Part shown: piece after piece, positions 2,146-16,095 of the stretch | Numbering within the stretch: the stretch's first letter is position 1 | Layout: each line of letters begins with the position of its first letter | Virus record (IMG/VR): IMGVR_UViG_3300037343_000102 | Coordinates: 1-35,813 of that record | Reading direction: 5' to 3' (one strand) | DNA length: 35,813 nt | DNA from: a virus | Notes under the pieces: generated by a model | The model's database searches: none | Told to the model about the DNA's origin: nothing | The model's input: the letters and a program-made list of their open reading frames with translations, nothing else | Made by a program: the position numbers and the translations under genes

Positions 2146-2204
2146 ACTTTACTGAGTCTGTCATAGGTTCAATTTATTGAATTAGTTATAGCCGCATGTT
2201 ATAG

Positions 2205-2606
2205 CTAATATAAGTCCTCGCTAAATAGCCTAGTCTTTAATTCTTTGGTTTGATTTGCTAAAAAAGCAATTTTACCAGCTCGATTTCTATCCACAAATAA
2301 ATCTGTATTTGTTAAAAATCCTTGTGTTTCTCGTTCTTCAAGCGTCACTCCTTTTTTAACTATTAATGTTTTATCATAACCAAGTGATTTTCCTATACTT
2401 TGGAAAGATGAATAACAGTTATGGTGTCTTCTACCAGCGATAACAAATCCAGATTTTATATTTTTTGGTTGGTGATTATGTTTTTTGCCATCATTAAACC
2501 AAATTGCTGAACAAATAATGTAAGTAATAGCTATAACACCATCTATAAATAATGGCGAGTTAGTGCTTAAATCGGTAGTCTGTGTGTCTTTATTTTGTTC
2601 TTTCAT
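2205..2606 (-). CDS. Prophage-type hypothetical protein (…LFSEDLY family)
   Basis: A 133-residue protein. From about residue 30 it resembles a small family common in prophages and mobile elements, recalled by the pattern ICSAIWF, GxRHHxC, QGFLTNTDLFVDRNRAGKIA and terminal LFSEDLY. Its biochemical function is unknown. The N-terminal 28 residues do not look like that family and are partly encoded by a 37-bp hairpin sequence (2532-2568) that also occurs in the gene ending at 5872, so the true start may lie further downstream. It is separated from its upstream neighbour by a hairpin (2634-2663). Confidence 0.7.
   Translation of the reverse strand: MKEQNKDTQTTDLSTNSPLFIDGVIAITYIICSAIWFNDGKKHNHQPKNIKSGFVIAGRRHHNCYSSFQSIGKSLGYDKTLIVKKGVTLEERETQGFLTNTDLFVDRNRAGKIAFLANQTKELKTRLFSEDLY
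2532..2568 (-). repeat. 37-bp repeat, copy 1 (inside the 5' part of an ORF)
   Basis: This matches 6037-6073 at 33 of 37 bases. Both copies are read in the same frame near the start of their ORFs and encode STNSPL. On the minus strand the repeat contains TAAC TCGC ... GTGTTATA, the same TAAC...GTTA core as the intergenic hairpins of this block. In this copy the inner stem is weaker than in copy 2. Confidence 0.6.
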
Positions 2607-2633
2607 AATTCAAAGTTTAGTACCTATTTAGTC

Positions 2634-2663
2634 GCCACTATTCATAGATTTAACGTTAGTGGC
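2634..2663 (-). repeat. Cassette-type intergenic hairpin
   Basis: Arms GCCACTA (2634-2640) and TAGTGGC (2657-2663) form a perfect 7-bp stem. The palindrome TAACGTTA (2651-2658) overlaps the distal arm. The TAG stop of the gene ending at 2663 overlaps the hairpin, as with other sites in this block. Downstream on the minus strand is a GTACTAAA leader similar to those after the sites at 5186 and in the 5544-5639 gap. Confidence 0.5.
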
Positions 2664-2866
2664 TATTTCACAGAACCGCCACGCTCAAGCTCAACTTTTA
2701 CAATTAGAAATGAATTATCTTCAAATTGCAATTCTTTTTTTTGCGAGAAAATATAACTTAAATTTTTCTCTTTTTTTTCGTCAAATCCAATGCTTTTGCA
2801 AAGAATAGGCAAAGAACCGAACAATCTGTATTGCTCGGTTTCTTTATTTTTTAAAATTAAAGGCAT
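2663..2866 (-). CDS. Hypothetical protein, 67 residues
   Basis: A small charged protein that begins at the last base of the preceding minus-strand gene, so the two are probably translationally coupled. The second half (FEDNSFLIVKVELERGG) suggests a beta strand. No family or function is recognised. It is transcribed from the promoter at 3111-3141 together with its neighbour. Confidence 0.6.
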   Translation of the reverse strand: MPLILKNKETEQYRLFGSLPILCKSIGFDEKKEKNLSYIFSQKKELQFEDNSFLIVKVELERGGSVK

Positions 2867-3066
2867 TAGTTTAATTTTATAGATGGAGCGTTAATTTTTG
2901 CTTTTTCGATAAAAACTTTTCCTAAATGTTTAAAAGCTATATTACTATCTGCATATCCTAATTCTCTAGCAATATTATCAAAATGCAATTGTCTTGGTGT
3001 TGATGCTTTTTTTACTTTATAAGTAATTCTGTTTTGTAAATTTTTAACGTCTTGATTAAGTTTCAT
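2866..3066 (-). CDS. Hypothetical protein, 66 residues
   Basis: A basic, mostly helical small protein; RELGYADSNIAFKHLGKVF looks like a small helical domain. It is the first gene after a strong Bacteroidetes promoter (3111-3141) with a leader of about 40 nt. It overlaps the next gene by one base. No family is recognised. It could be a regulator, but no clear helix-turn-helix is visible. Confidence 0.62.
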   Translation of the reverse strand: MKLNQDVKNLQNRITYKVKKASTPRQLHFDNIARELGYADSNIAFKHLGKVFIEKAKINAPSIKLN

Positions 3067-3110
3067 AATTTCTATTTTTTTATAAATAACGTTGTTGTTA
3101 TTTTCTTTAG

Positions 3111-3141
3111 CAAATATATAACATATTTTATAATAAACAAA
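3111..3141 (-). promoter_or_regulatory. Bacteroidetes-type promoter for 2866-3066
   Basis: On the minus strand TTTG (3141-3138) is followed after exactly 19 nt by TATATTTG (3118-3111), the consensus of Bacteroidetes primary-sigma promoters. The next gene starts 44 nt downstream. The surroundings are very AT-rich. Confidence 0.7.
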
Positions 3142-3198
3142 ACTTTTTAAAAAATATTTTACTTATTTACTAAAATATTTTTAAGAGTAGAAAAAACA

Positions 3199-3329
3199 GC
3201 CACTAACACTTGTTTTGCAAGATTGTGAGTTTTCTGTTAAGTTCATATTTTCATTTCGCATTGTAATTTATTTTAAGTTGAATAATTGTAGTTACGAAGT
3301 TCACAACCTCGCAAAGCACCAACGTTATA
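3199..3329 (-). repeat. Long cassette-type inverted repeat
   Basis: Arms at 3199-3231 and 3297-3329 (33 nt each) pair imperfectly. Outer cores are TAAC and GTTA. Inner parts share TTGTGA and TTTGC tracts with a few mismatches and unequal spacers. The hairpin fills the gap between genes 3337-3567 and 2866-3066. Its first TAACG lies just after the TAG stop of 3337-3567. This is the longest site of the series. Confidence 0.6.
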
Positions 3330-3336
3330 TTTAATG

Positions 3337-3567
3337 CTACATAACATCTAATTCAAACTTAACTTTTCTCCACCATTTCGCTTGATGTTTATATTCCATA
3401 TCAATATTGAATTTATCCATAAACTCTAATATTTCATCTACTGCAATATGTGAATTTTTAATAGCGATTAGTGAACATAGAATTTCATTACCACAATCGG
3501 TATCTTCATCCATCAATATCATTCTATACCTATTTACTAATTCTGCTGCTTTTTCTTTTGCTTCCAT
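3337..3567 (-). CDS. Small hypothetical protein common in flavobacterial mobile DNA
   Basis: A 76-residue acidic helical protein. The pattern KEKAAELVNRYR...AIKNSHIAVDEILEFM...WWRKVKFEL resembles small proteins (KAKELV...ALIAVDEI...YWQEVK) that I recall as frequent in flavobacterial prophages and islands; their function is unknown. It is flanked on both sides by cassette-type hairpins (3606-3665 and 3199-3329), so it looks like a single-gene cassette. Confidence 0.65.
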   Translation of the reverse strand: MEAKEKAAELVNRYRMILMDEDTDCGNEILCSLIAIKNSHIAVDEILEFMDKFNIDMEYKHQAKWWRKVKFELDVM

Positions 3568-3605
3568 TTTTTATATAATTTATTCGTTAATTAACCGCAC
3601 TAAAA

Positions 3606-3665
3606 TATAACACGGTATAAAATTCATTTCGTGCCTCAACGCATCTTATACTATACGTTACCTGC
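3606..3665 (-). repeat. Cassette-type intergenic hairpin after methyltransferase gene
   Basis: On the plus strand TATAACACGGTATAAAA (from 3606) pairs with TTATACTATACGTTACC (ending 3662) around a central loop. The cores are TAAC and GTTA, with unequal spacers (ACGG against G or GTATAG). The distal arm is part of a 28-bp exact repeat (3645-3672) shared with the site after the other methyltransferase gene (4458-4485). Confidence 0.6.
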
Positions 3666-3669
3666 AATA

Positions 3670-4398
3670 CTACGTTAGTACTCTTTTACAAGCAGTTTCA
3701 TAATGTTCAGGGTCTTGCTCCATCATAATAAAGTTTCTCCCAAGATTTTTTGCTCCAAGTCCAGTAGTTCCGCTACCACAAGTGTTGTCTAATATCAAAT
3801 CACCTTTATTAGTGTAAGTTCGTATCATATACTCAATTAAAGATAATGACTTTTGAGTTGGGTGTAAGCTGTTATGGTTTCCGTTACTGTATTGTATTAA
3901 ATTGCTTGGATAGTTTGTGTAGCTACTTTTATTACTGTGTTCTTTTTGCTCACCATAAATCTTTTCACCTTTTTTGTATTTAAAGTGGTTTGGTCTAAAA
4001 TTAGAAACCTCACACTTAATTAACCCTTGTGGGTTGTAAGTCGGTTGTTTTTTATAAAAAACACAAATATCTTCAACTTGTCTAAGAGGCTGTTTCTTTG
4101 CGTTTAAGTGGTTTGTTTTAGTTATTTTATCCCAAGTAAAAGAGTATTTAAACATTTTCAAGTTACTGCTAACTAAAATACTTGTAAAAGGTTGTGAAGC
4201 GAAAAGAACTATTGTGCCATTATCTTTAATTACTCGTTTATATTCTTTCCATAATTTATCCAAATCAATTACACTATCCCACTTACATTGAGTAGTACCA
4301 TAAGGTAAATCGCAAAAAATCATATCAACGCTTTTATCATCTACGTGTTTAGGCATTAACTCTAAGCAATCCCCTAAATATATTTCGTTTATCTTCAT
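3670..4398 (-). CDS. DNA methyltransferase, beta class (N6-adenine or N4-cytosine)
   Basis: A 242-residue enzyme transferring a methyl group from S-adenosylmethionine to an exocyclic amino group in DNA. Catalytic motif IV is DLPYG (about 31-35, a DPPY variant). The AdoMet motif I comes near the C-terminus as DNTCGSGTTGLGA (about 205-217), preceded by HPTQK. This order defines the beta class. No restriction endonuclease is adjacent, so it is an orphan enzyme, plausibly protecting phage DNA from host restriction. The next gene upstream is a second, different methyltransferase, and both are followed by the same 28-bp sequence. Target specificity cannot be read from the sequence. Confidence 0.9.
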   Translation of the reverse strand: MKINEIYLGDCLELMPKHVDDKSVDMIFCDLPYGTTQCKWDSVIDLDKLWKEYKRVIKDNGTIVLFASQPFTSILVSSNLKMFKYSFTWDKITKTNHLNAKKQPLRQVEDICVFYKKQPTYNPQGLIKCEVSNFRPNHFKYKKGEKIYGEQKEHSNKSSYTNYPSNLIQYSNGNHNSLHPTQKSLSLIEYMIRTYTNKGDLILDNTCGSGTTGLGAKNLGRNFIMMEQDPEHYETACKRVLT

Positions 4399-4422
4399 AA
4401 TTTTATCTTTTAAATCCGTACA

Positions 4423-4478
4423 GCAGGTAACAACGTATAAAGTGCATTAAAACGCACCTTATACTATACGTTACCTGC
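4423..4478 (-). repeat. Cassette-type intergenic hairpin between the two methyltransferase genes
   Basis: Arms GCAGGTAAC...GTATAAAGTGCATT (4423-4448) and AACGCACCTTAT...GTTACCTGC (4451-4478) form an almost complete hairpin with a tiny loop. The outer 9 bp (GCAGGTAAC with GTTACCTGC) are perfect. Extra unpaired bases lie on one side (AAC after the TAAC core, matching nothing opposite). It is the clearest member of the series. Confidence 0.7.
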
Positions 4479-4482
4479 AATA

Positions 4483-5163
4483 CTAAAAAAAGGTCAGTTG
4501 CTTTTTATGAGCTTCGAGCCTTTTGTTTGCTTTAATGTAGTAATCTTTATCAATTTCAAGTCCTACTAAATCATATTTTCGATTCCAACAGGCTTCCGCA
4601 ATGCTTCCACTTCCTAAATGCGTGTCAATTATTTTGCTTCCTTCTTTTACATAAGTATCTAATATCCATTCATAAAGCTGTACAGGTTTTTGTGTCGGGT
4701 GTATTTTTCTTTCTTTTTGAGGGTTGTTTAAGTAACCAAATCCTATCCAGTCATAAGTGAACCTTCTTAAAATTCCGTCACTACTTGTCCACGCAAGTTC
4801 ACCATCACTAAAGTTCATATTATTTGCATTTGTAATCTTTTTATCCCAGAAAATCCACCCTTTCTTTGGTGGTAATAAATCAGCAAAATAATTGCCACCC
4901 CACACAATTTGATTTTTAGATATTCTTATCAGCTCGGCAAAGTATTCAGGCGTTGGTCTGCAAGTGTCCCATCCTTTTTTTTCGTGATGTTGTTTATTTC
5001 CAAAGGTACTTGCTTTGCCTGCTTTGCCTTTTACGGTTGTATTGCCATCAAAGTTAATCCCATAAGGTGGGTCAACGATAGCCCAATCAAATTGTTTATC
5101 CTCGCATTGCTTCATATAAAGCAAACAATCTTGGTTTAGTAATTCTATATTAGGTTCAGTCAT
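4483..5163 (-). CDS. DNA methyltransferase, beta class (adenine-specific type)
   Basis: A 226-residue methyltransferase. Motif IV is VDPPYGINFDG (about 30-40), and HPTQKP (about 171-176) precedes motif I, DTHLGSGSIAEA (about 195-206). It belongs to the beta class, with the catalytic motif first. DPPYG is typical of N6-adenine enzymes of phages. At 226 residues it is short and has little room for a separate target-recognition domain. No cognate endonuclease is visible, so it probably acts in anti-restriction or regulation. It is flanked by hairpin sites at 5186-5246 and 4423-4478. Confidence 0.9.
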   Translation of the reverse strand: MTEPNIELLNQDCLLYMKQCEDKQFDWAIVDPPYGINFDGNTTVKGKAGKASTFGNKQHHEKKGWDTCRPTPEYFAELIRISKNQIVWGGNYFADLLPPKKGWIFWDKKITNANNMNFSDGELAWTSSDGILRRFTYDWIGFGYLNNPQKERKIHPTQKPVQLYEWILDTYVKEGSKIIDTHLGSGSIAEACWNRKYDLVGLEIDKDYYIKANKRLEAHKKQLTFF

Positions 5164-5185
5164 AATTCATTTTTTTAGTACAGTA

Positions 5186-5246
5186 GGTAACAATGTATAT
5201 AACCCATTGCCGAAAAAGGCAACGTGCCATATACTCAACGTTACCC
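5186..5246 (-). repeat. Cassette-type intergenic hairpin
   Basis: Arms 5186-5211 (GGTAACAATGTATATAACCC, ending ATTGCC) and 5218-5246 (GGCAACGTGCCATATACTCA, ending ACGTTACCC) pair imperfectly around GAAAAA. On the minus strand the stop codon TAA of gene 5241-5543 is itself part of the GGGTAACG arm, so gene end and site are fused, as in integron cassettes. Confidence 0.65.
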
Positions 5247-5543
5247 ACCATTTAAAAGCGAGTGACCCATATACAAACCTTCACAATAGCCAATAGCACG
5301 ATATTTAGATTTTGAAAATTCGTTTGTTCTTTCAGTGATAGCATCATCTTTATAATAAACACGCCACAACCAATGACCTTTATCCATTTGCTCAACTCTA
5401 AAAGTGTATTCGTCTATTTTGCAAATAAAGTCATCATCGCTATTGGCTTCCCACGGAAATTCTTCGGTAGCAAACGAAGGATAAAAACGGTGGGTAACAC
5501 CAGATATAGTGTATGGCTTTTCTGTTTTTGAAGGCTGTTTCAT
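5241..5543 (-). CDS. Hypothetical protein, 100 residues
   Basis: An acidic, aromatic-rich soluble protein with probable beta strands (DEYTFRVEQMDKGHWLWRVYY) and a Gly-rich tail. No family is recognised. Its stop codon lies within the hairpin site at 5186-5246. Upstream, on the minus strand, a leader with GTACAAAAC resembles the leader before gene 2205-2606. It appears to be a one-gene cassette. Confidence 0.62.
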   Translation of the reverse strand: MKQPSKTEKPYTISGVTHRFYPSFATEEFPWEANSDDDFICKIDEYTFRVEQMDKGHWLWRVYYKDDAITERTNEFSKSKYRAIGYCEGLYMGHSLLNGG

Positions 5544-5639
5544 TTTTGTAAAGTTGTTTATTAATCAAAGTTTTGTACTGTTTAAAAGGTCGCCACACAC
5601 CATATCCAAACCGCTAAGACCTCGGTATATAAATAATGC

Positions 5640-5882
5640 TTACTTCACTACTTCATCAATGGCTAGTTCCATCAACAAAAATGCTAAATCTCGGTTTCTA
5701 AATTGGCTTCTGTAATTTTCAACAATGATAGTAATACCTATTTCACTTTCTAGTTTAATGCCTACTGTCATAATTCCGCAGGATTGTCCGCCTGTTTTTT
5801 GTTCTGGATGCCTAGTAATTTTTACGCTTTCTAAAAGCATTTTTTTAGTTTCTGTTTTCATATACCAAGCGTTATAATTCAT
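5640..5882 (-). CDS. Mini release-factor-like protein (GGQ domain)
   Basis: An 80-residue frame; the better start is probably Met8 (ATG at 5861-5859), giving 73 residues. GGQ (about 31-33) is followed 16 residues later by a Gly-Ile pair, then by RSQ (58-60) and NRDLA. In class I release factors and ArfB-type rescue factors the domain reads GGQ, about 17 residues, GI, then RSQ..N..A, so spacing and anchors agree closely. GGQ catalyses peptidyl-tRNA hydrolysis in that family. The usual GPGGQ is TGGQ here and there is no codon-recognition or long basic tail. A ribosome-directed role is an inference from motif spacing only. Confidence 0.5.
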   Translation of the reverse strand: MNYNAWYMKTETKKMLLESVKITRHPEQKTGGQSCGIMTVGIKLESEIGITIIVENYRSQFRNRDLAFLLMELAIDEVVK

Positions 5883-6102
5883 TTCCTAAAAGCCATTCAA
5901 TAGCATCTTCAAAACCTATCTCATACATTTGCCTTTGTTTATAAGTCATTGGAAAACCTTGCTCCTTCCTAATTTTAACGTTTTTATTTACCCCATTTAT
6001 AACTGCCTGTATCTTGTCACGAAGTGACAACGAAATTATAACACTCGCTATAAGTAATGGCGAGTTAGTGCTTTTCTGATGTTCTGTGCTTTCTATATTC
6101 AT
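5872..6102 (-). CDS. Hypothetical protein, 76 residues
   Basis: The frame is open from a GTG at 6141, but the first ATG is at 6102, which I prefer. Residues about 11-25 (STNSPLLIASVII) are encoded by the 37-bp repeat shared with 2532-2568, so the native protein may start later. The C-terminal half (GFPMTYKQRQMYEIGFEDAIEWLLGNEL) is helical and resembles small flavobacterial mobile-element proteins, with no known function. The TAA stop lies in a TATAACG sequence and the next gene starts across it. Confidence 0.55.
   Translation of the reverse strand: MNIESTEHQKSTNSPLLIASVIISLSLRDKIQAVINGVNKNVKIRKEQGFPMTYKQRQMYEIGFEDAIEWLLGNEL
6037..6073 (-). repeat. 37-bp repeat, copy 2 (inside the 5' part of an ORF)
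   Basis: This matches 2532-2568 at 33 of 37 bases. In this copy TAACACTCGC (6039-6048) pairs with GCGAGTTA (6060-6067), leaving AC unpaired. The compact hairpin therefore has the TAAC...GTTA core plus asymmetric bases seen in the intergenic sites. It is translated in frame in the gene ending at 5872. Confidence 0.6.
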
Positions 6103-6120
6103 TGGTTCTAAATTTAAAGT

Positions 6121-6163
6121 GAGTAGTTCCAAATCCGCCACTACTCATGGCGGATGCCGCTAC
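6121..6163 (-). repeat. Intergenic hairpin, divergent member
   Basis: ATCCGCC (6133-6139) pairs with GGCGGAT (6149-6155), and GTAG (6122-6125) with CTAC (6160-6163). The stop TAG of gene 6160-6378 forms part of the outer arm. The core is GTAG...CTAC instead of TAAC...GTTA, so membership of the same series is uncertain. Confidence 0.45.
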
Positions 6164-6378
6164 CTAATATCATTTAAGAAATCATCAACATTCTTTATTT
6201 TATCCATATTCGGCTTTGCTTTTTCAATGGCTTGATGTAAAGTGGCATATGGTATATTTAGTTCTTCATTTAAATCTAGCTCACACTTTCCACAGTATTC
6301 GCCACCGCATAACCCTGATCTTATTAAAGGGAAATCGCATTCGCAAAGTGGGTTTCTTTCGTTTATTAAATCTTTCAT
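6160..6378 (-). CDS. Small Cys-rich (zinc-ribbon-like) hypothetical protein
   Basis: A 72-residue protein with Cys residues arranged CEC...C...CGKC in its first 32 residues, suggesting a bound metal, followed by a helical tail ending in DDFLNDIR. It begins 4 nt after the repressor stop and so is probably co-transcribed with it. No family is recognised. It may be a partner or modulator in the lysogeny switch, by position only. Confidence 0.6.
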   Translation of the reverse strand: MKDLINERNPLCECDFPLIRSGLCGGEYCGKCELDLNEELNIPYATLHQAIEKAKPNMDKIKNVDDFLNDIR

Positions 6379-6382
6379 TTTT

Positions 6383-6574
6383 CTAAAGTTTAAATAGATC
6401 CGAAATAGGCACTTCCAACTCGTTAGAGATAACCTCTATAAGCTTTACAGTTGGCGTTTTATGTCCTCTTTCAATCTGGCTCAGGTAAGGTTGTGTAGTA
6501 CCTATTAACTTACTAAACGCCCCTTGACTATAGCCTTTACTTATTCGCTCTAATTTAATATTTCTACCTAACAT
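6383..6574 (-). CDS. XRE-family repressor (cI/Cro-like)
   Basis: A 63-residue single-domain DNA-binding protein: LGRNIKLERISKGYSQGAFSKLIGTTQPYLSQIERGHKTPTVKLIEVISNELEVPISDLF is a full HTH_3 domain, with recognition helix around TTQPYLSQIERG. No peptidase or dimerisation domain follows, so induction would not be by LexA-type self-cleavage. It is transcribed away from the early operon, with back-to-back promoters in the 104-bp gap. This is the classical layout of a temperate phage switch. A close copy of its promoter drives the lipoproteins at 27337. Confidence 0.85.
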   Translation of the reverse strand: MLGRNIKLERISKGYSQGAFSKLIGTTQPYLSQIERGHKTPTVKLIEVISNELEVPISDLFKL

Positions 6575-6589
6575 AATATGTTTTATTTA

Positions 6590-6614
6590 CACAAAGATAA
6601 TAAATTTTATCTAA
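6590..6614 (-). promoter_or_regulatory. Repressor promoter with palindromic operator candidate
   Basis: On the minus strand the -7 box is TATCTTTG (6599-6592). The spacer carries AGATAAAATTTATTATCT, whose outer six bases form an inverted repeat (AGATAA and TTATCT) overlapping the -7 box. The -33 position is TTTC (6622-6619). The repressor starts 17 nt downstream of the box. Bases 6581-6622 match 27347-27388 at 39 of 42 positions. Confidence 0.6.
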
Positions 6615-6628
6615 TAATGAAAAAAAAG

Positions 6629-6659
6629 TTTGTTTATATCAAATATTTTATTAACTTTG
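6629..6659 (+). promoter_or_regulatory. Early promoter
   Basis: TTTG (6629-6632), 19 nt, TAACTTTG (6652-6659): an exact Bacteroidetes consensus, with the first early gene 19 nt beyond the box. The -33 element lies only 6 nt from that of the repressor promoter, so one operator between them could control both directions. Confidence 0.72.
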
Positions 6660-6678
6660 CTTTGTTAATAAAACGGAT

Positions 6679-6996
6679 ATGACCAAAAATATAAGTGAAG
6701 CGACCTTTTTAAAATTACTAGAAAACATCAAGTTGTTTAGCGGTGATGATTTAACCCAGATTGCATTTGATTCTAAATATAGAAATGTATTTTTAAGCAT
6801 TACAGGATATGAAGAAGATAATTATAAGCTAGTTATCGATGAACTTTACAACACCAATCTAAAAAAAGAAATGTCGTTAACTTCTAGGATGAAAGAAATA
6901 CTACAATCTATAATCTTAAACGAGGTTAAGCGACAGGAGAAAAATATTAAAGATGAAGCACAAGATATTGAACTAGATTACGAACAATTTAATTAA
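6679..6996 (+). CDS. First early gene, hypothetical acidic protein
   Basis: A 105-residue acidic, helical protein with no recognised family. As the first gene after the early promoter, by analogy with other temperate phages it may encode a regulator (Cro- or N-like) or a host-takeover factor. No helix-turn-helix is apparent. The C-terminal tail (IKDEAQDIELDYEQFN) is strongly acidic. Confidence 0.65.
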   Translation: MTKNISEATFLKLLENIKLFSGDDLTQIAFDSKYRNVFLSITGYEEDNYKLVIDELYNTNLKKEMSLTSRMKEILQSIILNEVKRQEKNIKDEAQDIELDYEQFN

Positions 6997-7002
6997 AACA
7001 AG

Positions 7003-7221
7003 ATGGAGAACATTCAAGACGAAACAATCAAATTTTTACAGCAAAAATTAACAGAACAGAACCTGTTAAAATGGACTTATTTAGCAAAGGGCAATTTACC
7101 AATATGGGAAGAAATAAACCTTAAAGAAGCCACTAGAGAAGTAGAATTCTACGCAGAAGCTTTAATAAGTATTAAGCTGTTAAAGAAAATTGAAACGGAC
7201 GGATTATTTAACAAAAATTAA
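7003..7221 (+). CDS. Early hypothetical protein, 72 residues
   Basis: A small helical protein (LQQKLTEQNLLKWTYLAKGNLPIWEE...FYAEALISIKLLKKIE), probably a helical hairpin. It lies 6 nt after the preceding gene in the early operon. No family is recognised. Confidence 0.6.
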   Translation: MENIQDETIKFLQQKLTEQNLLKWTYLAKGNLPIWEEINLKEATREVEFYAEALISIKLLKKIETDGLFNKN

Positions 7222-7222
7222 G

Positions 7223-7327
7223 ATGCTTGAGTGCTTAGTAATTTTACCAGTAGCGTTTATCTTATTTGCCAGCATTTACAAAACAATCGAATATATTATT
7301 TACGTAATTAAATCAAACTTAAAATGA
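7223..7327 (+). CDS. 34-residue membrane peptide
   Basis: One hydrophobic helix (about residues 5-17) followed by a second amphipathic segment and a basic end (KSNLK). It fills the gap between two early genes, starting 1 nt after one stop and overlapping the next ATG by 4 nt (ATGA), which supports it as a real gene. Function unknown. Confidence 0.5.
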   Translation: MLECLVILPVAFILFASIYKTIEYIIYVIKSNLK

Positions 7328-7560
7328 AAAAACTAGAAACAGGAATATCAACAGAGATTGTAAACGGACACATTCACGTTTACACCGAAAAAGAAACACT
7401 ACAGATCGAGCAGTTATCTTGGTGGCAAAAAGTCTTAAAAAAAAACGAACTAAACGAAGTTTGCGAAATGAGTAAATTTCTTGAATGGTATGAAAAAATA
7501 CAAAATGTAAATGTCATTACCAACGAGCAATTTGAACGCATAAATAAAAAGCTATGCTAG
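7324..7560 (+). CDS. Early hypothetical protein, 78 residues
   Basis: A soluble small protein with an N-terminal beta segment (IVNGHIHVYTEKETLQI) and a helical remainder rich in Trp and Glu. It overlaps both neighbours in the early operon. No family is recognised. Confidence 0.6.
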   Translation: MKKLETGISTEIVNGHIHVYTEKETLQIEQLSWWQKVLKKNELNEVCEMSKFLEWYEKIQNVNVITNEQFERINKKLC

Positions 7561-7700
7561 TAATATACTTTGCGATACCAATTTTCGCTGCCCTAATAGT
7601 AGCGATTGTAAAAATACATTTAGAAACGAACAGAGAAATTAGGTTCTTTAATATGTGCGGAATGGTAAAGTCGGAACCTAAAAAAAAAACTGCCAACTGA
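7554..7700 (+). CDS. 48-residue membrane peptide
   Basis: A hydrophobic N-terminal helix (LVIYFAIPIFAALIVAIVKI, residues 2-21) is followed by a basic cytoplasmic tail ending KKKTAN. The ATG lies inside the end of the preceding gene, a common coupling arrangement here. Possible roles include membrane anchoring of replication or host modification; neither is shown. Confidence 0.5.
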   Translation: MLVIYFAIPIFAALIVAIVKIHLETNREIRFFNMCGMVKSEPKKKTAN

Positions 7701-7784
7701 CCAAGAAACAACAGAATATTTAAGAAGTAAAATAAATCGGTAAGCTTATTTCCGAATCTAAATAAGCAAAAAAACAAATATATT

Positions 7785-8489
7785 ATGTCAAGATTAGAAC
7801 GACCTGAGGCGAAAAACACAAACCCAGCTACTAAGTTTTTAGAATGGAAATCAGATGAAAAATGTTTTTCATTTTATGATAAAGAAGCAAAGCAAAATGT
7901 ACTGGTAGATTTACCTTTAAAAGTTGCTTTTATCGAGCATTACCATACAGTAAAGGGTTGGCACGATGCAACGCAATCTGGTATTTACTCGAATGAAGTT
8001 TACGGAATTGGCTACGAGCATTTGACTGTAAAAACATTTAAAGGTTTAGAAATATCCAAAGGTCTTTACAAAGAGAATAAGGATAAAATAAACAATGCAG
8101 GCGGAAATTATTACCGTTCTATTTATTGCGCCTTAGATGATGGATCTATTATCAATATCGCTTTAAAAGGAGCTTGCATCGGTGGTATAAAAAAAGAGAA
8201 AGCGGTGGATTTAAAAGAACATCCCGGATATTCTGAATTTTCAAATAACAACTCCAACGCATTGGAATATCAATGGCTTGAAATTAATTCTTTTGCGGAA
8301 GCTAAAAGCGGAAAAATTAACTATTCAATTCCTATTTTTTCCCTAGGCGAAAAAATAAGTCAAAAAGAGGATAGCTTAATTAATGAGGCAGCTAAAAATT
8401 TACAAGAGTTTGTAAAATCCAGAAAAGAAACTGCCACAACAGGCGCAACAACTTTAAAGGAAGAAGTTAGTGATGATGATTTCTTATAA
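7785..8489 (+). CDS. Probable phage single-stranded DNA-binding protein
   Basis: A 234-residue protein with a conserved-looking body (ATKFLEWKSDEKCFSFYDKEAKQNVLVDLPL...GIYSNEVYGIGYEHLTVKTFKG...NYYRSIYCALDDG) and an acidic end, EEVSDDDFL. Acidic tails ending in a hydrophobic residue recruit partner proteins in bacterial SSB and T7 gp2.5-type proteins. The position, upstream of the initiator-like gene and origin, fits. The body does not match an OB-fold family I can name, so the function rests on tail and context. An 84-nt gap precedes it, and a hairpin terminator follows at 8500. Confidence 0.55.
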   Translation: MSRLERPEAKNTNPATKFLEWKSDEKCFSFYDKEAKQNVLVDLPLKVAFIEHYHTVKGWHDATQSGIYSNEVYGIGYEHLTVKTFKGLEISKGLYKENKDKINNAGGNYYRSIYCALDDGSIINIALKGACIGGIKKEKAVDLKEHPGYSEFSNNNSNALEYQWLEINSFAEAKSGKINYSIPIFSLGEKISQKEDSLINEAAKNLQEFVKSRKETATTGATTLKEEVSDDDFL

Positions 8490-9084: not shown

Positions 9085-9446
9085 AAGACGAAAACTATTT
9101 AAAGCAAATTATAGAATATGTTAATTTAAATCTAAAGATTGACATAGGTAGCGATACCAGAAAAAGAGAATATGTCGAAGGTCGTTCCCTGTATTACACA
9201 CTAGCCAAAAAGCATACGATGTTCAGCGACCAAGAAATAGGTAAAAGTATTGATAAAAATCATGCAACTGTATTATGGGGTCGTACCAAAGTATTTACCC
9301 ACGCTCTAAAAGAAAATAAGTTAATTAAAAAAGCTTACGATGCTTTTATTTTTAAAGACTCAAACGAAATGGATAGACTTATTTACCTCACTAAAGAATT
9401 ACACGAATTAGAAACTAAAATACTTAAAGATTATGGATTGGAATAA
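9081..9446 (+). CDS. Stand-alone DnaA domain IV-like protein, probable origin-binding protein
   Basis: A 121-residue protein resembling the C-terminal DNA-binding domain of DnaA. The block RKREYVEGRSLYYTLAKKHTMFSDQEIGKSIDKNHATVLWGRTKV (about 27-71) matches the family pattern, in which a basic loop and a helix-turn-helix with the signature DHSTV (here NHATV) read the DnaA box. The AAA+ ATPase domains are absent. Next to it are four exact copies of an 11-bp iteron (9458-9776), which I infer to be its target. It would mark the origin and recruit the primase-helicase encoded downstream. A role as a DnaA competitor or transcription factor is also possible. Confidence 0.72.
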   Translation: MKDENYLKQIIEYVNLNLKIDIGSDTRKREYVEGRSLYYTLAKKHTMFSDQEIGKSIDKNHATVLWGRTKVFTHALKENKLIKKAYDAFIFKDSNEMDRLIYLTKELHELETKILKDYGLE

Positions 9447-9457
9447 ATAATGTTTTA

Positions 9458-9776
9458 ATGTGTTGCGTAAGACCCGAAAGGGTCTTTTTTTATGCTTAAA
9501 AATCACAAAATTATGTTAAAAAAAATAAATAAAAATAAATTTGCACAATTCAAAAAAAAGCTTATAAAACTTAAACGCCTTTAAATCAGCATTTTAAAGA
9601 AATCACTCGCAACACATTTTCGCTTTCCCCTATACTGCTATCTGTATAAATCACTATTAAAAATATAGACGGTCATACTTTTTCGCTTTTAAAATGTTGC
9701 AAGTGTTGCGAAATTATTTAAAATGCTTAAAACCAATACTTTAGCCGCAACACATTAAAACCAAACGCAACACATT
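9458..9776. other. Putative replication origin with 11-bp iterons
   Basis: CGCAACACATT occurs exactly at 9608-9618, 9746-9756 and 9766-9776 on the plus strand and at 9458-9468 on the minus strand. Two partial copies lie at 9693-9700 and 9701-9710. The last pair is spaced 20 bp apart. TTTTCGCTTT also occurs twice (9617-9626, 9680-9689). A run of almost pure A and T at 9497-9540 could unwind. There is no gene here, apart from the leader that follows. The region sits between a DnaA-like protein and a primase-helicase. These are the ingredients of an iteron origin; that function is inferred. Confidence 0.6.
9469..9491 (+). terminator. Rho-independent terminator after the DnaA-like gene
   Basis: AAGACCC, loop GAAA, GGGTCTT, then a run of T: a classical intrinsic terminator with a GNRA-type loop, 22 nt after the stop. 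It ends the early operon and abuts the first iteron (9458-9468). Confidence 0.85.
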
Positions 9777-15465: not shown

Positions 15466-15587
15466 TAACGTTTAGTATATGAAACGGCTTGTAAATAATC
15501 ATAAATTTTGAATTAAAAACGAACAAATTAAATAAACAATAACCACCGAGAAAGCAAGGAATTAAAGCTGTTTTATATACAGTGTTA
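15466..15587 (+). repeat. Cassette-type inverted repeat (plus strand)
   Basis: The left arm 15466-15490 begins TAACGTTTAGTATATGAAAC. The right arm 15565-15587 ends TTTTATATACAGTGTTA. They pair over about 20 bp with unequal spacers beside the TAAC and GTTA cores, and the 74 bases between them are AT-rich. The arm design equals that of the minus-strand sites at 3606-3665 and 4423-4478. The leader after it (CTGGGCGGTTTTAAAAACA) resembles the one before the methyltransferase start at 4398 (CTGTACGGATTTAAAAGATA). Confidence 0.65.
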
Positions 15588-15616: not shown

Positions 15617-15976
15617 ATGGCATTAGATTACGGACACACTTGCCCCGACATTGATAGAAGCATTACATCATTCAAATCTGATATTGAAAGTTATTTGAGT
15701 AATATGTTAGATGATTGTTGCCCTATACTTGAAGGAAAGCAAAAAGAAGATTTTATTAAAGATTACGCTGAACAAATGTATAGCGACTTTGAACCAAATT
15801 TTGAAGACGTTAGAAAAACTAATGAAGATATGCGAAAAGAAGCTGATAGACAAATAGACTATGCAGAAGAAAAAGCTTATGATGCAGAAGAAGAAATTAA
15901 AGATTTGAATGCGCGAATTAAAGAATTAGAGGGGCAAGTTTCTGAACTCGAATCTGAATTAGATGCAGTAACGTAG
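15617..15976 (+). CDS. Coiled-coil hypothetical protein, 119 residues
   Basis: The first half contains four Cys or His residues near CPDID and DDCCPIL. The second half (about 70-117) is an acidic coiled coil (DYAEEKAYDAEEEIKDLNARIKELEGQVSELESEL). No family is recognised. GTAACG immediately precedes the TAG stop, again linking the gene end with the TAACG motif. It is the last accessory gene before the packaging genes. Confidence 0.62.
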   Translation: MALDYGHTCPDIDRSITSFKSDIESYLSNMLDDCCPILEGKQKEDFIKDYAEQMYSDFEPNFEDVRKTNEDMRKEADRQIDYAEEKAYDAEEEIKDLNARIKELEGQVSELESELDAVT

Positions 15977-16095
15977 CCTTGTTGCTAACGTGCGGCTACA
16001 AGCCACAAATGTATTACAATCTATGAAAAAATTTAAAAAAACAATATATCGTATTTTATTATTTAGATTGATTAAAAATACATAAATTTGTCATT

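Follow-up and report, generated by a model that had tools for sequence, protein, structure and literature searches.

What kind of element is formed by the small genes and imperfect hairpins that alternate on the minus strand at 2160-6163 of the virus record IMGVR_UViG_3300037343_000102? The record belongs to a phage of a Bacteroidota bacterium. A preliminary description of this 35,813-nucleotide stretch (the window, here taken at its full length) likened them to the gene cassettes of integrons. Integrons are a bacterial gene-collecting device, defined by the integrase IntI with its additional domain. We suggest that the block is very probably a phage-type integron cassette array, the units of which would be exchanged by a Xer-related tyrosine recombinase. 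More broadly, Bacteroidota phages probably run an integron class of their own, with a phage-encoded Xer-like integrase that lacks the IntI domain, an attI site 5' of the integrase gene and an attC site before each gene. This class would be active in the sea today and would produce the accessory-gene arrays by which otherwise identical phages differ. As far as sequence comparison can establish them, the sites, the cassette borders, the position of attI, the polarity, the gain and loss of cassettes in Polaribacter phage Freya and the clade of phage recombinases are documented below.

attC-like sites in the window

Sites were located with a rule-based finder that ignores gene positions and looks for TAAC, 4-6 nt, a helix, a loop, the second half of the helix, 2-4 nt and GTTA. 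In the 35.8-kb window it found six sites with a helix score of at least 8, against 0.18 in dinucleotide shuffles. All six (S1 to S5 and P1 below) have 5/3-nt spacers and are intergenic within two arrays of small genes. Allowing TAGC as the left core added two more (S-1 and S0); the null for this wider search averages 1.3, and these two therefore rest mainly on their flanks.

6039-6162, minus strand: S-1, degenerate attC-like site, left core TAGC and right core GTTA, with the start of open reading frame (ORF) 5872-6141 in the loop
S-1 right flank, minus strand: TAATT, complementary to the AATTA that precedes TAAC at 5874-5871
5872-6141, minus strand: gene of the S-1 cassette, 89 amino acids (aa), no assigned function
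5495-5616, minus strand: S0, degenerate attC-like site, TAGC..GTTA; ATG 5543 in the loop; start CCCAC complementary to its own end GTGGG at 5/5 bases
5241-5543, minus strand: cassette gene, 100 aa, no assigned function; its stop overlaps the S1 core
5188-5243, minus strand: S1, attC-like site; single-strand DNA fold z -4.5 on the minus strand
4483-5163, minus strand: cassette gene, N6/N4 DNA methyltransferase (Pfam N6_N4_Mtase, 1.5e-13)
4428-4473, minus strand: S2, attC-like site; fold z -5.2
3670-4398, minus strand: cassette gene, N6/N4 DNA methyltransferase
3608-3660, minus strand: S3, attC-like site; weak minimum free energy (MFE) folding
3337-3567, minus strand: cassette gene, 76 aa, no assigned function
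3204-3327, minus strand: S4, long attC-like site
2663-3066, minus strand: two-gene cassette, ORFs 2866-3066 and 2663-2866
2534-2658, minus strand: S5, long attC-like site; ORF 2205-2606 starts in the loop; fold z -2.5
2205-2606, minus strand: final cassette gene, 133 aa
2185-2201, minus strand: attI-like array end TAACATGCGGCTATAAC; the leader and short ORF that follow resemble those past the phi13:2 array
15466-15587, plus strand: P1, attC-like site of the second array; start GCAAC complementary to its own end GTTGC at 5/5 bases
15617-15976, plus strand: cassette gene after P1, 119 aa, coiled coil
15986-16002, plus strand: attI-like end TAACGTGCGGCTACAAG of the plus-strand array

The hairpins first described at 2160-6163 are thus real, except that two of them are half-sites: 2634-2663 is the left arm of S5, and 6121-6163 is the left half of S-1 with its TAGC core. 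Four 16-mer left arms, matched at 0 mismatches, correspond to the main sites of that description. A covariance model (R1) whose seeds include window sites matched the three short sites at E~1e-12; it is blind to long-loop sites, and counts were therefore taken with the rule-based finder. Set against attC, the sites have the hairpin, a YAAC/GTTR core and 5-6/3 spacers, and the RYY/RRY part is unconserved and cassette-dependent; the earlier description had remarked on boxes that depart from RYYYAAC/GTTRRRY. The stop codon noted inside the first core at 5241 is also where it was placed, and the start codon of the following gene sits in the loop of S-1, S0 and S5. MFE DNA folding favours the TAACG strand for S1, S2, S5 and P1. 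Having at least two attC-like sites and no integrase nearby, the window arrays have the make-up of a cluster of attC sites lacking an integrase (CALIN).

An Rfam scan of the window gave no match. With a two-arm DNA pattern, the same element was matched in 40 IMG/VR contig stretches and 17 bacterial genome stretches, mostly from Bacteroidota. A portal protein search of IMG/VR returned no close relative of the window, so there was no sister phage to compare.

All attC-like sites keep a G.T pair in two places, the inner stem (GTATAWG / TTATAC) and flank position +7/-7. The opposite strand has an A.C mismatch there, and the pair could mark the recombined strand. In the window, 2532-2568 and 6037-6073, the right halves of two sites that also code for parts of both next genes, are 89% identical, which suggests that one attC and gene start were reused for two different genes. 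A left half-site, TAACGCTTGGTATATG, lies at 5874-5871(-) after ORF 5872-6141; its right arm at about 5631-5615, with GTCTTA, appears decayed.

Mosaic flanks as a signature of cassettes

In an integron attC site, the outer bases belong to the neighbouring cassette. The start of each cassette should therefore be complementary to its own end. This was found for the six window cassettes from 5616 to 2201, in which 29/30 bases are complementary between start and own end (null mean 7.1, maximum 17 in 20,000 permutation draws), compared with merely 12/30 inside single sites. The same relation holds in viral arrays (3.85/5 complementary versus a null of 1.94, standard deviation 0.11; 89 pairs), in host arrays (3.77/5 versus 1.72, standard deviation 0.24; 26 pairs) and in 21 pairs from the first loci. 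Flank pairing covers five bases, the conserved G.T at position 7 and then about three more, and so exceeds the classical RYY/RRY. Mosaic sites, as in integrons, are thus present in the window and in viral and host arrays. The GTAC-AAA motif, which had been read as a shared leader, is the outer part of the site and pairs with GTA..TT where its own cassette ends.

This result bears on whether the hairpins are instead transcription terminators or processing sites between the genes of an operon, with no role in recombination. They do sit at gene ends, as terminators would. The complementarity, however, joins the two ends of a cassette and not the halves of one site, and terminators do not predict that a cassette start should match its own end. 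In addition, the start codon of the next gene often falls inside the site.

Cassette unit and polarity

Shared DNA between phages indicates how sites and genes belong together. Cellulophaga phage phi13:2 and the window have in common, at about 83% identity, S2, the methyltransferase gene 3670-4398 and everything up to the next TAAC. Between phi13:2 and phi19:3, a single 371-bp unit consisting of a site and the following gene is 99.2% identical, with AAC borders on both sides and different neighbours. Given these units and the start codons in the loops of long sites, the phage cassette is an attC followed by its gene; a cassette made of a gene and a downstream attC was ruled out on the same evidence. 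The gene-then-attC layout initially proposed for the window was therefore inverted.

Phages phi13:2, phi18:3 and phi19:3 share DNA solely from the array end onwards, which comprises TAACAATGTTATATAAC, a 78-aa ORF and then a recombinase gene. Phage phi46:3 has the same region at 87.5% identity, with AAC but not TAAC. The minus-strand array of the window ends in TAACATGCGGCTATAAC, related to TAACAATGTTATATAAC, followed by a leader like theirs and by an ORF of this type in shortened form. Polaribacter phages P12002L and P12002S, which are 99.7% identical, part exactly at T/AACAACGGATAA. In P12002L an attI-like TAACAACGGATAA is present twice (68 bp identical; reverse complement, 11425 and 19451), and each copy closes a small gene array, as in the two arrays of the window.

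The classical position of attC, 3' of the gene, is seen in host arrays, whereas in phages attC lies 5'. In one count, gene/attC polarity was opposite in hosts and phages (43/54 versus 22/27). Upstream of viral recombinases, 146/148 sites have phage polarity, one has host polarity and one is symmetric; when both polarities were allowed, 65/68 host sites had host polarity and one had phage polarity. Phage genes point toward attI, so that the usual kind of Pc promoter is not expected.

Gain, loss and sharing of cassettes in Polaribacter phages

Polaribacter phage Freya is represented by ten isolates from one host strain, and the comparison covered seven of them. In Freya_1 attI is empty (GTTTAC/AACACCCCTATAACAACAATAAG, then the integrase). 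Freya_2 equals Freya_1 plus an 842-bp cassette, Freya_5 has a further 902 bp relative to Freya_2, and Freya_6 another 472 bp relative to Freya_5. In Freya_9 a block of 2891 bp comes on top of what Freya_5 has, and Freya_10 is Freya_9 plus 307 bp. Freya_8 is Freya_10 minus the 902-bp cassette, one precise internal difference. Outside the inserts these arrays are exactly identical, the overlap at the borders is mostly AAC alone, and the insertions are located at attI, as expected of an integron. The authors of the Freya genomes read the integrase as a possible sign of a temperate lifestyle and did not mention cassettes.

Cassettes are also shared more widely. Danklef phages, which belong to another species and infect a different host strain, have a 1169-bp stretch of array in common with Freya_9/10 (99.6% identity, AAC at both ends). 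In Danklef_1 (9349-9480) the integrase is annotated at about 44 aa despite a full array; the gene may be broken or misannotated.

A comparison of related phages for precise exchange of one gene plus one site had been proposed, and such exchanges were found: gain, loss and swapping are clean, in agreement with the idea of an integron-type mobile cassette system in flavobacterial phages. Because the exchange borders are exact, the terminator reading fails; together with the mosaic flanks, the Freya borders rule it out, and we give it practically no credence.

Exchange could in principle also come from homologous or illegitimate recombination at repeated hairpins, with no site specificity. Phage genomes are generally mosaic, and the odd directions of attC in P12002L were explained by mosaicism (Qi et al., PMC9892861). 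The borders, however, overlap by just 3-4 nt (AAC) in most comparisons, and adjacent sites differ in sequence. Moreover, an attI-like sequence directly precedes the recombinase gene in three named phage families. We consider recombination of this kind very improbable and prefer site-specific exchange of cassettes.

Phage-encoded recombinases

A search of IMG/VR with a recombinase alignment gave at least 586 related stretches. Among the 80 retained of these at least 586, 44 of the 64 distinct viral loci have sites directly upstream of the recombinase gene. The phage attI has the form YAAC..TATAAC and lies just 5' of the gene; those of phages Leef and Ingeline (TAACGCCCCTATATAC, TAACACCCACATAAC) resemble that of Freya and precede the integrase. 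A quick tree groups the viral recombinases in one clade (35 rows; Shimodaira-Hasegawa-like approximate likelihood-ratio test, SH-aLRT, 98), with three viral rows outside it, and the host integron recombinases in another (22 rows; 82). Both are separate from the housekeeping Xer proteins of the host genomes; IntI1 has a long branch, which makes its placement uncertain. Aligned to the IntI structure 2A3V, the Freya integrase has 50 aa where IntI has 94, and the additional domain is absent.

On this basis, a cassette, made of an attC-like hairpin and one or a few genes, is very probably exchanged as a unit. The Xer-related recombinase may cut at the YAAC edge, on the side of the site that bears the 5-6 nt spacer, and the folded TAACG strand may be the substrate; this is the coding strand in phages and the opposite strand in host arrays. 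New cassettes enter at an attI-like half-site, located where the gene array ends downstream and just 5' of the recombinase gene. Genes are read toward attI, with polarity reversed relative to host integrons.

Several observations weigh against this interpretation. The finder detected no upstream site at 20/64 viral recombinase loci, and phi13:2, phi18:3, phi19:3 and phi46:3 carry a different, weakly related recombinase after attI. The Freya series consists of short-read assemblies by others, used as assembled. Within the window, S3 and S4 lack significant MFE folding, two sites have the degenerate TAGC core, and the attI-like ends were recognised by similarity alone. A PF00589 search found no tyrosine recombinase in the window (no match at E<=1), in line with the initial remark that no integron integrase is present. 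The window arrays therefore need a recombinase in trans or are inactive; we infer that a trans-acting host or phage enzyme could serve them.

Other recombinase loci had features of their own. In Cellulophaga Baltivirus/Bacelvirus phages, a tyrosine recombinase (weak PF00589 and SAM_5; e.g., 7118-8404) lies right past the attI-like end of a variable array. With this weak match, the phi13:2-type recombinase is a candidate either for a cassette mover or for a lysogeny integrase. In IMGVR_UViG_3300028767_000092, an integron-type recombinase gene (5968-6807) directly behind a phage-polarity array has one in-frame stop codon, and three contigs share this recombinase match. One viral contig (L177) has a second phage-polarity array 2.1-3.5 kb downstream of its recombinase.

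Integrons of Flavobacteriaceae hosts

When site-bearing genomes were searched for the integron integrase TIGR02249, the best matches were under the cut-off and broken around a missing segment. Against 2A3V, the host recombinase has 22 aa where IntI has 65, and it therefore lacks the additional domain. In Aquimarina, an attI-like GTTA/CCAGT directly follows the recombinase gene and matches the end of the first cassette, ..ACTGG/TAAC; the host attI is a palindrome plus GTTR immediately past the recombinase stop. Of 149 sampled genomes of the family, the site model matches in 40, and the recombinase is present at E<=1e-60 in 67. Where recombinase and sites are close on one contig, 10/12 have the sites downstream and antisense to the recombinase, and arrays are downstream at 18/19 host loci. 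Judged by their sequences, Flavobacteriaceae have integrons (recombinase, attI, cassettes) that appear to be run by a Xer-like recombinase without the IntI additional domain. Some Bacteroidota contigs stop about 300 bp or less past the recombinase stop (G152:C66, G063:C19, G089:C11, G142:C11, G013:C2 and others), and draft genomes will therefore hide many arrays.

An alternative is that the window block is a CALIN captured from bacterial integrons, with ordinary host cassettes as a passive cargo that only the integrase of the host, if anything, would move. The absence of a recombinase from the window fits this, the attC sites of host Flavobacteriaceae integrons belong to the same model family, and phage CALINs, including that of P12002L, have been described (Qi et al., PMC9892861). 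Polarity, however, is opposite in phages and hosts (146:1 versus 65:1), and it cannot be flipped by cassette recombination, which counts against such an origin; derivation of the cassettes from host integrons is disfavoured for this reason. In addition, phages have their own recombinase clade, and cassettes are common to different phages. We therefore regard passive carriage as unlikely, and a phage-type array as the better account of the window. The suggestion that the host supplies the recombinase stands in part: hosts do have integrons with a matching recombinase, but in many related phages a recombinase of their own clade is encoded beside attI. Overall, the preliminary description was for the most part correct in what it observed and partly correct in how it interpreted this.

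Comparison with known systems

CALINs on virulent phages, including P12002L, are published, and in an assay IntI1 recombined one P12002L site (attC2) into attI1 (Qi et al. 2023, PMC9892861). The P12002L CALIN resembles the window in having attC clusters on a flavobacterial phage, methyltransferase cassettes and no integrase, and its sites are matched by the present model. That work differs in containing no phage integrase of this clade, no attI and no natural series of gain and loss, and the inverted polarity went unrecognised; the 'divergent directions' of P12002L attC sites were attributed to mosaicism (Qi et al. 2023, PMC9892861); inverted polarity may be the reason for them.

Classical integrons (class 1, Vibrio chromosomal) likewise have a tyrosine recombinase, attI, tandem attC sites, AAC/GTT cores, mosaic R boxes and insertion at attI. 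The present recombinases differ in lacking the IntI additional domain, pairing of the outer flanks spans about 10 nt, including G.T at position 7, in place of RYY/RRY, and phage attC precedes a gene that is read toward attI. The IntegronFinder 2.0 survey (PMC9024848) listed one complete integron in Bacteroidetes proper, in Salinibacter ruber M1, besides an earlier In0. Given that the Flavobacteriaceae recombinase is Xer-like, a search for the IntI domain would probably miss the integrons described here.

As to Xer proteins (XerC/XerD/XerA), the best-scoring model for the recombinase of host integrons is NF040815 (XerA/'integron integrase'; 230 bits, cut-off 220). This recombinase falls, however, in a separate clade and lies next to attI and a row of attC sites. 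In Freya, Leef and Ingeline the gene carries the annotation 'integrase', like those of temperate phages (attP/attB), but the DNA next to the Freya gene is a ladder of cassettes at attI and not one prophage integration site. A paper on crAss-like phages concerns cassettes of diversity-generating retroelements (DGR) and is unrelated to integrons of this kind. Open-access full texts, in a search that mostly left subscription papers and preprints outside, held no account of Flavobacteriaceae integrons with a recombinase lacking the additional domain, or of phage-encoded integrons with inverted polarity.

Implications for phage and host biology

The window looks like a recombinase-less member of a seemingly widespread class of phage integrons. 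If a large clade of phage and Flavobacteriaceae recombinases does the work of IntI without the additional domain, many integrons escape the definition on which search programs rely. The single-gene mosaicism of flavobacterial phages would be explained, and this is testable in existing isolates, Freya_1 to Freya_10. Phages would then own a dedicated directional device to gain and shed methyltransferases and other accessory genes.

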